DNA of 64,000 nt, taken from NCBI RefSeq assembly GCF_030505395.1, contig NZ_CP130044.1, positions 3,147,001 to 3,211,000 of the forward strand. Direction: 5' to 3'. A program made the translations under genes and the position numbers. Origin of the DNA: Asticcacaulis sp. ZE23SCel15. Lineage in GTDB: Bacteria; Pseudomonadota; Alphaproteobacteria; Caulobacterales; Caulobacteraceae. The notes under the pieces are model-generated. The model was not told the origin of the DNA. It saw only the letters and a program-made list of their open reading frames with translations, and searched no databases. Shown here piece by piece: positions 47,528-60,931 of the stretch; the first letter of the stretch is position 1, and the number at the start of each line of letters is the position of its first letter.

Positions 47528-47556
47528 AAGTCCTTCGCTGCGCTCAGTGTACTTTC
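47528..47556. repeat. Short palindromic repeat, copy 2 (after ychF)
   Basis: Matches 3774-3801 at 27 of 28 positions: AAGTCCTTCGCTGCGCTCAG, then TGTACTTTC. It lies between ychF and the structured 105-bp element. Confidence 0.6.
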
Positions 47557-47577
47557 GGGAGGTCCAGCAGATAACCA

Positions 47578-47682
47578 GAAAATCGTGAGATTTGAGTCGA
47601 GTAGCAGGAGCCTAACGACGGAGGCATGTTAGATACCTCCTAGTGACGGCGACGCACTAATCGACCAAAGACCGCGATTTTC
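47578..47682 (-). repeat. 105-bp structured element, copy 1
   Basis: Outer arms GAAAATCGTG (47578-47587) and CGCGATTTTC (47673-47682) pair over ten bases with one G-T pair. Inside, GTCGAGTAG pairs with CTAATCGAC, and GGAGG ... CCTCC makes the central hairpin. Same length as 59505-59609 and about 85 percent identical (89 of 105 by hand), with paired changes preserving the stems. The stop TGA of the HD-domain gene (47681-47683) overlaps the right arm. Confidence 0.8.
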
Positions 47683-48334
47683 ATATCTCTTCGTGGAAGT
47701 ATTCGACAAAAGCCCTCATCCGGGCATGGCGCAGTTCGGCCATATCTTTGCCGGACTTGGTCTGAAAACCGTCTGACAGCTTAAATAGCTTGGTCGTGAA
47801 ATGATCCAGCGCGAAAGATGCGTCATCAAGGTCGCGGCCTTGGGCTTGCGGGTCGGCCGCGTCATACAGCGATGATCCCATCCGTCCGGCGGTGTAAAAG
47901 CACCGGGCGATACCGACGAAACCAATGGCATCAAGGCGATCCGCGTCCTGTAGTATCCGCGCCTCAAGGGTCTGGGGCGGGATATTGGCGCTGTAGCTAT
48001 GGGCATGGATGGCGTGATCGACAGCATCCAGATCGGCCTCTTCCCAACCCAGTTGGCTTAAGATTTCGCGAGCCTTATCTGCCGCCAGACGCGACGCCCG
48101 CGCCCGTTCCGGTGAGTTCTTTTCAACCTGAACACAGTCATGCAGCAACACCGCCGCCGTCAGGACGCGCAGACACCCGCCTTCAAGCGCCTGAAGTGTG
48201 CGGGCGACCTTATAGACCCGGACCAGATGAGCAACATCATGGGCGCCGTCGTTACTGACCACGACATGCGGCAAAAGATCCTGCGCCAGTTCTTCATATG
48301 GCGCGAACGCTTCGCTAAGTTGTACGAATGACAT
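47681..48334 (-). CDS. HD-domain phosphohydrolase, YedJ-like
   Basis: 217 residues. HD superfamily metal site: GAHDVAHLVRVYKVA (first histidine), VLLHDCVQVEK (HD pair), HAIHAHSY and RILQDADRLDAIG (final aspartate). The pattern fits the YedJ/uncharacterised HD hydrolase group rather than (p)ppGpp synthetases or dGTPases; YedJ-type proteins act on phosphorylated small molecules, but the substrate is unknown. Its stop codon lies in the 105-bp structured element, which will form the 3' end of the transcript. Confidence 0.85.
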   Translation of the reverse strand: MSFVQLSEAFAPYEELAQDLLPHVVVSNDGAHDVAHLVRVYKVARTLQALEGGCLRVLTAAVLLHDCVQVEKNSPERARASRLAADKAREILSQLGWEEADLDAVDHAIHAHSYSANIPPQTLEARILQDADRLDAIGFVGIARCFYTAGRMGSSLYDAADPQAQGRDLDDASFALDHFTTKLFKLSDGFQTKSGKDMAELRHARMRAFVEYFHEEI

Positions 48335-59446: not shown

Positions 59447-59490
59447 AAATAAAGAACCCCGCAGGCACTAACCTGCGGGGTTCTTTATTT
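59447..59490. terminator. Bidirectional rho-independent terminator
   Basis: AAATAAAGAACCCCGCAGG (59447-59465), six-base loop, CCTGCGGGGTTCTTTATTT (59472-59490): 19 perfect pairs. Serves the secreted repeat protein and, from the other side, pyrC. Confidence 0.92.
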
Positions 59491-59504: not shown

Positions 59505-59609
59505 ATAAATCGTGAGATTTGAGGTGAGTAGCAGGAGCTAAGCGACGGAGGTATATTAGATACCTCCTAGCGACAGCGACGCACTAATCACCCAAAGACC
59601 ACGATTTAT
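59505..59609 (-). repeat. 105-bp structured element, copy 2
   Basis: ATAAATCGTG (59505-59514) and CACGATTTAT (59600-59609) form ten perfect pairs; GGTGAGTAG pairs with CTAATCACC; GGAGGTAT-ATTAG-ATACCTCC is an eight-pair hairpin. Same length as 47578-47682. The pyrC stop TAA (59606-59608) is inside the right arm. Confidence 0.8.
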
Positions 59610-60931
59610 AAGGTTTCCATGAAGCGGCAGGATTCCCCCTTCGACGGCAGCACAATCTCATCATCGCGCATGACGACCTTGCCGCGGATGATGGTCGCCT
59701 TGGGCCAGCCGTGCGCCTCAAAGCCATCGAACGGCGTCCAGCCGCAGCGTGAACGCATGTTTTCATGCTTTAAGACTCGCTTATGGTTCATGTCGACCAG
59801 GGTGATATCAGCATCATAACCTTCGGCCATGCGGCCCTTTCCGGCCACACCAAACACGCGCTGGGCACCGGCCGAGGTCAGATCCACCAGCCGCTCCAGC
59901 GAGAGCTTACCGCTATTGACATGGGTCAGCATGACCGGCAGCAGGGTCTGCACGCCGGGCATACCCGATGGCGAGGCCGGATAGAGCTTTGATTTTTCTT
60001 CCAGCGTATGCGGCGCATGGTCGGACCCCAGCACATCGGCCACACCCTGAATGATGCCGCGCCACAGGCCATCGACATGGTATTGGTTGCGGATCGGCGG
60101 GTTCATCTGGGCCAGTCCTTTGAGACGCTCATAGGCTTCGGGGGCCACCAAGGTCAGGTGCTGGGGCGTGATTTCAACAGTGGCGATATCCTTATTCTTG
60201 GACAGGAAGTCGATTTCTTCAGCGGTCGTCACATGCAGAACGTGGATGCGCTTACCCGCCTCACGGGCCAGCCGCACCAGACGGTGGGTCGATTGAATGG
60301 CCGATTCGGCATCGCGCACATAGTCATGGCTGGTCCAGTCGCCTTCGCGGGCCAGCGGACGGCGCTCGGCCAGGCGGTATTCATCTTCTGAATGGAAGGT
60401 GGCGCGGCGATTGACGGCCTTAAGCACTGCCGCCACTCCGGCGTCATCGGCGATCAGCAATGAGCCGGTCGAGGCGCCCATGAATACCTTGACCCCGCAG
60501 CAGCCTTTGAGGCGCTCCAGCTCGGCCAGATGATGGATGTTCTCATGGGTGCCACCGACATAAAAAGCATGGTCGCAGTGCATGCGGTGGTGGGCGCGTT
60601 TCAGCTTATCCTCAAAGGTCGCCACGTCGATGGTGTTCGGGTTGGTGTTGGGCATTTCAAACACCGCCACAACCCCGCCCATGACGGCGGCTTGAGAGCC
60701 GGTCTCTAGGTCTTCTTTCCACTCAAGGCCCGGTTCACGGAAATGCACTTGGGTGTCGATCACCCCCGGCATGGCCAGCAGACCCGATGCATCAAACACC
60801 TCACCGGCCTCGGTGGCATCAAAATGACCAAAGCCTGCGAATTTGCCATCCTTAATGGCGATGTCGCCCATGCCGCGGCCCGCGTGATTGATGATATCGG
60901 CATTTTTGATAATCATGTCATATGTGGGCAT
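59606..60931 (-). CDS. pyrC: Dihydroorotase
   Basis: 441 residues. Class I dihydroorotase in pyrimidine synthesis. Metal ligands: PGVIDTQVHFREPGLEWKED with HxH, GVKVFMGASTGSLL where the lysine is carboxylated, HVLHVTTAEEIDFL and LGSDHAPHTLEEK with the catalytic aspartate. AGKGRMAEGYDADITLVD is the usual C-terminal beta subdomain. Close relatives include allantoinase; a DTQVHFREPG start and the general length fit PyrC, but this cannot be separated with complete certainty by eye. The stop lies in the 105-bp element. Confidence 0.92.
   Translation of the reverse strand: MPTYDMIIKNADIINHAGRGMGDIAIKDGKFAGFGHFDATEAGEVFDASGLLAMPGVIDTQVHFREPGLEWKEDLETGSQAAVMGGVVAVFEMPNTNPNTIDVATFEDKLKRAHHRMHCDHAFYVGGTHENIHHLAELERLKGCCGVKVFMGASTGSLLIADDAGVAAVLKAVNRRATFHSEDEYRLAERRPLAREGDWTSHDYVRDAESAIQSTHRLVRLAREAGKRIHVLHVTTAEEIDFLSKNKDIATVEITPQHLTLVAPEAYERLKGLAQMNPPIRNQYHVDGLWRGIIQGVADVLGSDHAPHTLEEKSKLYPASPSGMPGVQTLLPVMLTHVNSGKLSLERLVDLTSAGAQRVFGVAGKGRMAEGYDADITLVDMNHKRVLKHENMRSRCGWTPFDGFEAHGWPKATIIRGKVVMRDDEIVLPSKGESCRFMETL

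Follow-up and report, generated by a model that had tools for sequence, protein, structure and literature searches.

Stop-codon-abutting hairpin elements with compensatory evolution and replication-linked strand polarity in Asticcacaulis

The window analyzed here is a 64,000-nucleotide stretch of the forward strand of Asticcacaulis sp. ZE23SCel15 (GCF_030505395.1, contig NZ_CP130044.1, positions 3,147,001 to 3,211,000; genome label G000). It holds two copies of a 105-bp hairpin element, each of which lies against the 3' end of a leftward gene. The features are listed in window coordinates; bit scores and orientations are those of R1, a covariance model built from 34 copies of the element.

47578..47682, + strand: element copy 1, 105 bp, R1 orientation +, 116.3 bits
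47578..47587, + strand: outer left arm of copy 1, pairing with 47673-47682 (10 pairs, minimum-energy fold)
47673..47682, + strand: outer right arm of copy 1, where the leftward HD-domain gene has its stop codon edge
47620..47640, + strand: central tip hairpin GGAGG...CCTCC of copy 1, helix 5 of the family structure
47681..48334, - strand: HD-domain protein gene, 217 aa, abutting copy 1; its TGA stop reaches 2 bp into the element
59505..59609, + strand: element copy 2, 118.7 bits; its right arm holds the wobble base of the last pyrC codon and the TAA stop
59606..60931, - strand: dihydroorotase-like gene, 441 aa, read as pyrC from an amidohydrolase Pfam match; abuts copy 2
59447..59490, no strand assigned: symmetrical hairpin of terminator-like form, each strand with a T-rich tail; a putative terminator as read from sequence

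The two copies are each 105 bp long and identical at 89 of 105 positions, in agreement with the initial annotation, which had also described them as structured, with compensated differences and with neighboring stop codons in the right arm. These descriptions held. Both strands of both copies folded far better than dinucleotide shuffles (z of −5.2 and −8.7 for the two + strands, −5.4 and −7.5 for the two - strands), with 0 of 200 shuffles matching the native fold in each of the four cases. The predicted fold contains the 10-pair outer arm and the GGAGG/CCTCC tip, and differences between copy 1 and copy 2 at paired positions are compensated (positions 1/105, G-C to A-T; 2/104, A-T to T-A; T9.G97 to T-A). 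The TGA of the HD-domain gene lies at the right edge of copy 1, and the TAA of pyrC lies inside the right arm of copy 2, which is placed between this stop and the terminator-like hairpin at 59447..59490. A chance palindrome was rejected on the basis of these shuffle folds together with the covariation measures given below.

A covariance-model search, which the initial annotation had proposed, placed the two copies in a dispersed family. R1 found 20 distinct copies in G000 and at least one match at E ≤ 0.1 in all 25 of the Asticcacaulis genomes searched (relatives are labeled G001 and so on; L numbers are individual loci), the weakest best match having an E value of 1.4e-14. Raw per-genome match counts include duplicate matches on the opposite strand (5 of the 25 G000 rows; 6 of the 28 G018 rows). 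Exact-pattern matches in named genome contigs fell within Asticcacaulis in 30 of 30 cases. At family level outside the genus, 1 of 274 genomes (G242) gave a weak match under stricter filters (E of 1e-3); this locus (L075) looks by eye like an unrelated palindrome and was rejected as a member of the element family. The L075 palindrome begins GTCATCCTCGGG and looks like another alphaproteobacterial repeat class. Carriage as a plasmid or phage passenger was also rejected, there being no match in the plasmid and phage collections searched; two pattern matches on viral contigs had no R1 match, and their sequence reads as unrelated.

Pairing within the family is maintained as sequence changes. R1 was derived from A3, a MAFFT alignment folded without the R1 structure; alignments A4 to A7 were fitted to the R1 structure, which favors that structure. 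In A7 (100 chosen copies, without near-duplicates and without several that scored low), pairing held in 95.6% of pair cells, compared to 76.0% after shuffling. In the same alignment, 32 of 36 pairs had changed on both sides, 0 of 500 shuffles reached any of five covariation measures, and shifting the partner by one to three columns reduced pairing to 32-43%. A wider set of 150 distinct rows (159 loci) gave a similar value (5107 of 5370 cells paired, 95.1%). Even outer arms of unrelated sequence stay largely complementary (e.g., L070, L088, L121, and L138). Across 143 distinct flank pairs, Watson-Crick pairing ran at 86-99% over positions 1-5, dropped to 48% one position into the flank, and was 20-32% farther out. 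The left flank carried no motif beyond a weak C preference at −7/−6, and by eye the printed flanks contained no consistent direct repeat of the kind left by target-site duplication. At one fabI-like locus (L188; G020:C1:2702954-2706299), three near-identical tandem copies with a repeated linker between them were seen, a local amplification.

The right edge of the element falls at a stop codon. This was quantified in 154 copies compiled with 1.5-kb flanks, a subset of all matches drawn from the best-listed ones, in which low-scoring copies are under-represented and outside which lie several listed copies in G014, G015, G019, and other genomes; because one locus was sampled in several genomes, copies are not independent. 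In 129 of 154 copies, a leftward gene had its stop ending −2 to +5 from the right edge. In the remaining 25, the stop lay further inside (11 to 27), was more distant, or belonged to no leftward gene; the last situation was found in four copies, which seem to represent two loci (L087/L154 and L138/L156). By codon-scored genes, 150 of 154 copies had a leftward right neighbor (in L151, a gene other than the abutting one), while the left neighbor was convergent in 94 and leftward in 56, and the element stood between two rightward genes in 4. Only in L151 did a rightward gene on the left side end within −5 to +2 of the left edge. The abutting genes comprised 15 singletons and 27 ortholog groups with members in at least two genomes. 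Their names are our reading of Pfam families, with 30 of 42 representatives scanned: DnaJ-domain, pyrC, CDP-alcohol phosphatidyltransferase, ftsW/rodA family, fabI-like, OTC/ATC-ase, fliE, hybrid histidine kinase, cysK-like, recR, dinB-like, gcrA, ribonucleotide reductase, typA/bipA, argJ, and folP-like.

At pyrC alone, different genomes use different stop codons, with compensating changes in the far arm. Among 12 element-bearing pyrC copies (10 distinct), 20 of 36 pairs had changed on both sides, and four of five covariation measures exceeded all 500 shuffles, the fifth (further pair types) being reached in 33 of 500. The stop was TAA in ten copies, TAG in G019, and TGA in G020, with the far arm changing to match. 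The third base of the last pyrC codon was A, G, or T, and its partner past the element was T, C, or A, matching in 11 of 12 (the exception, G001, has G opposite G). The pyrC and HD-gene 3' ends were also compared across genomes in 31 of 38 rows (5 of 25 pyrC rows, from G004, G015, G002, G009, and G020, and the HD-gene rows from G019 and G013 were left out). Element-free genomes had other sequence after the pyrC stop, with a terminator-like hairpin near the stop in, e.g., G003, G012, and G021. In G007 (L228), unrelated sequence follows the pyrC stop and several close relatives carry the element, a possible loss. The HD-gene element was present in 4 of 13 genomes with the gene; of the other nine, seven read as empty and two rows were unusable.

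Element bodies differ between genomes at the same site. Among five close genomes, the element was <80% identical, with the adjoining 300 bp on the gene side ≥85% identical, in 43 of 90 pairwise orthologous comparisons; left-flank identities from these comparisons are unreliable owing to free end gaps (one value was 0.0). At fabI, the 14-base printed flanks of G000 and G018 were identical and the element bodies 75% identical. The closest relative of a copy sat at that copy's own locus in 73 of 151 cases, at a different locus of its own genome in 17, and elsewhere in 61.

We next consider which strand is folded. Of 144 distinct copies, DNA energies favored folding of the + strand in 129 and of the - strand in 6; by RNA energies, the corresponding counts were 102 and 35. 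Internal loops contained 494 G.A and 19 C.T juxtapositions in the + folds, and 411 and 26 in the - folds read in + letters. At least one G.A was present in 141 of 144 + folds, tandem G.A in 109, and the exact string pair GGAG/CGAC in 47. On the + strand, G.T outnumbered A.C over all 36 pairs (220 to 51), without the constitutive wobble pairs 9 and 16 (81 to 48), and without pairs 9, 16, and 15 (76 to 31); a second count, with the structure derived on the + strand and two constitutive columns excluded, gave 60:31. In eight other genomes of the class, the + strand was more stable in 20 of 22 copies examined. Taken from sequence, these counts provide moderate evidence that the functional strand is the one antisense to the abutting gene.

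Strand also follows the direction of replication. In G000, the 13 + copies share one arc and the 7 - copies share the other (20 of 20; permutation P of 2.5e-4). GC skew in 20 sampled 20-kb stretches of this genome flips from minus to plus near 1.02 Mb, read as the origin, and changes sign near 2.92 Mb, read as the terminus, both changes falling between the element arcs. In G018, 22 of 22 copies fall into two arcs (P of 4e-5), many loci being common to both genomes. On seven other contigs, each with 4 to 9 copies listed, strand switched once or twice (P of 0.056 to 0.50, individually nonsignificant). A located origin was used in G000 only; polarity in the other genomes refers to strand runs along contigs. 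Since the leading strand is G-rich, the model + strand would be the leading-strand template and the abutting gene co-directional with the fork. All 20 abutting genes of G000 were co-directional, compared to 235 of 405 genes (58%) sampled from all genes. At convergent junctions, the co-directional gene was the nearer one in 12 of 12 cases in G000 and 14 of 14 in G018, again with many loci in common. L087 and L138, whose arcs are known, keep the replication polarity despite having no leftward gene. The polarity exception is L151 (G005:C1:1702649-1705754), in which the core is reversed relative to ftsW and to neighboring copies; its arms are exact reverse complements, and it looks like an inversion or a template switch between arms.

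Weak relatives of the element were found elsewhere in the Alphaproteobacteria; they, the replication polarity, and the stop-codon rule over 154 copies lie beyond what the initial annotation could see. Besides G000, 8 of 384 sampled alphaproteobacterial genomes matched at E ≤ 0.001, and some of them carried 3 to 7 copies; 22 of the 24 class-level matches outside the genus were examined. The best of these retain AGGAG and CGACG around the tip, then CAAGC, and the G391 copies have AGGCG with AACGA or AACGC in place of AGGAG/CGACG. In 4 of the 22 (two in G391, one each in G348 and G437, representing three other families), the stop of a leftward gene lies in the right arm, at 2 to 11; the abutting genes match dicarboxylate symporter, ribosomal protein L20, MlaA, and M41/AAA protease. 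By eye, the hairpin in G559, G591, G602, and G577 lies in longer units that have inverted ends and in some cases hold two head-to-head hairpins, and R1 found second hairpins in L285, L304, and L305. The related hairpins of G591, G602, and G577 (L285, L295-L297, and L300-L304) lie within larger units with long terminal inverted repeats, and some of these units start at or beside the TAG or TAA stop of a neighboring gene. G559 (L284 and L289-L294) has seven hairpin copies with conserved flanks, a separate family resembling miniature inverted-repeat transposable elements (MITEs); four printed copies have the inverted ends AGAG.CTGTTTG...

Comparison with described systems did not yield an identity. 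Rfam had no match in the window, and an E-value search of 13 element loci returned only matches below the gathering score. The window also contains a short string, GTCCTTCGCTGCGCTCAGTGTACTTTCGGG, at 47530-47559 adjoining copy 1; a string like GTCCTTCGCTGCGCTCAGTGTACTTTCGGG occurs on the other strand after pyrC in G010 (L244), and it may be another small dispersed repeat. In size, alphaproteobacterial host, intergenic position, and structure, the element resembles the CcrM-associated intergenic repeats (CIR; about 110 bp) of Caulobacter and Brucella; however, CIR have GANTC and a two-arm fold (available text of PMC2229807), whereas here a single long hairpin contains GANTC at about the chance rate (0.37 per element, 0.40 expected). 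CIR identity was rejected, 95 of 148 distinct copies having no GANTC. ERIC, RUP, RPE, and Correia elements are likewise dispersed, about 100-150 bp long, and mostly have inverted ends; in the available text of the same paper (PMC2229807), they have conserved terminal repeats and several have target duplication, whereas the outer arms here are variable yet complementary and the sockets are stop codons. No account of this family was found in the literature searched, which lay mostly outside subscription journals, so that its absence from print is unproven.

The nearest working analogy is attC, the recombination site of integrons. The functional strand of attC is antisense to the gene, and its terminal boxes read RYYYAAC ... 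GTTRRRY. Like attC, the element is an imperfect palindrome after a stop codon, with a fixed orientation to the gene and structure kept over sequence. In chromosomal integrons, the recombinogenic attC strand is on the leading-strand template (available text of PMC11023631), as is the functional strand proposed here. Unlike attC, the copies are dispersed at ordinary genes. Both attC boxes occurred together in 0 of 154 copies (the first in 0, the second in 1), and the element is not classed as attC because these end boxes are lacking.

We tentatively favor, while allowing that it may well be wrong, a small noncoding exchangeable element recognized as a single-strand hairpin of the strand antisense to the abutting gene. 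This reading builds on the family membership, covariation, stop-codon sockets, fixed replication strand, and differing bodies per socket established above by sequence comparison. A putative recombinase or transposase would act on the folded strand, swapping or inserting the hairpin at sockets in gene 3' ends, and the protein might read the mismatched G.A loops of the core, leaving the arms needing only to pair. If so, arm sequences, and even a stop codon within an arm, could drift by compensated changes, and the element would be tolerated because it starts at the stop codon. Such an element would account for the strand-specific mismatches, the free but paired arms, the exchange at sockets, and the polarity. 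The initial annotation had called the element mobile and structure-selected; dispersal, covariation, and differing bodies per socket are in line with this, but no movement was observed. In its furthest form, the proposal becomes a dispersed attC-like system without an integron, in which antisense hairpins at core-gene stops would be exchangeable single-strand recombination sites of fork-set polarity, ancient in Alphaproteobacteria and served by a recombinase not yet recognized; we regard this version as unlikely.

Several observations weigh against the favored reading. No recombinase was identified (Y1_Tnp and RVT_1 were absent from G000; other recombinases were not searched for), no insertion with target duplication was demonstrated, and copies at different loci of one genome were at most 94% identical. 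Counts on strandedness are not uniform: pair 15 alone gave 5 G.T to 17 A.C, and with the structure derived on the - strand the counts were 54 to 132 raw, 52:33 with two constitutive columns excluded (P of 0.05), and 50:49 by distinct context. The G.A loops are largely common by descent and represent few independent events. The polarity argument would be weakened if core genes are co-directional above 58%, as they may be. The stop-codon rule is the part that DNA-based readings explain least, and a hairpin-reading recombinase alone gives no account of exact stop-codon abutment.

The other suggestion of the initial annotation, borne out in part, was an RNA of the 3' untranslated region, which would act in cis on the abutting gene. 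Here an mRNA hairpin starting at the stop codon would block 3'-5' decay or couple decay to termination, and covariation would come from selection on that hairpin. The stop lies at the stem base in one orientation in 129 of 154 copies, the pyrC wobble base and stop codon covary with the far arm, and many abutting genes are core genes (by Pfam names). Nevertheless, the gene-sense strand mostly folds worse, and energies, G.A loops, and G.T versus A.C counts favor the antisense strand (moderately, and with one count opposite). Co-directionality of 20 of 20 compared to 235 of 405 sampled genes is also left unexplained, as are the two loci without a leftward gene (L087/L154 and L138/L156), of which L087 and L138 still keep polarity. 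We consider this RNA a live rival, though somewhat unlikely. An RNA on the other strand fits the better-folding + strand: an antisense hairpin would end or process head-on transcripts entering the gene 3' end. The left neighbor is convergent in 94 of 154 copies, compared to 59 convergent and 162 tandem junctions after sampled co-directional genes. However, 56 of 154 copies lie between two leftward genes, pyrC in G000 already has the terminator-like hairpin between the head-on gene and the element, and body replacement is unexplained. Such a guard is a live rival too, though in our estimate improbable.

Two further explanations were weighed. The copies could be immobile old MITE/REP-like relics (REP, repetitive extragenic palindrome) whose apparent covariation arises without selection, from intrastrand template switching (quasi-palindrome correction) and gene conversion. 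Body replacement with retained outer arms fits conversion, in L151 one arm has been copied without change onto the other, and part of the pairing could come from template switching. Yet correction should erase mismatched loops, and one or more G.A remain in the + fold of 141 of 144 distinct copies; a different outer-arm sequence type between similar flanks is hard to obtain by conversion, and polarity and stop-codon sockets are unexplained. We give this explanation little credence. The initial annotation had instead proposed a REP or bacterial interspersed mosaic element (BIME), which in the sense of mobilization by a RAYT (REP-associated tyrosine transposase, Y1) was not borne out. Like the element, REP/BIME are palindromic, intergenic, mostly downstream of genes, and have strand-specific mismatches; REP termini can supply stop codons, and CGTC REPs, most of them alphaproteobacterial, likewise have no known transposase (available text of PMC3733652). 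By the same text, however, the REP unit is 20-40 bp with a GTAG or CGTC tag, compared to about 105 bp paired to its ends here, and no replication polarity is reported for REP in the part of PMC3733652 available. The search for a Y1 transposase (PF01797), also proposed by the initial annotation, returned none in G000 or in the copy-rich G005, G008, G014, and G018. Only 4 of 25 genus genomes have one (G010, G012, G020, and G021, with 3, 2, 12, and 1 R1 matches), and the four Y1 loci checked, out of nine, had no R1 match. With no Y1 transposase in G000, the REP/RAYT explanation is unsupported and, in our estimate, very improbable. A reverse-transcriptase route via RVT_1 was rejected: G000, G005, G014, and G018 lack this domain, G008 has a single match, and the domain occurs in 7 of 25 genus genomes.

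Short palindromic repeats are widespread and often lack an explanation. The present family gives three testable constraints together: exact stop-codon sockets, fork polarity, and compensatory evolution that reaches a gene's stop and last codon. Should the element be a single-strand recombination site, the integron principle would reach the ends of core genes; should it act as RNA, it would add a new kind of control element at 3' ends. On either reading, the polarity would tie the direction of replication to the fate of hairpin elements.
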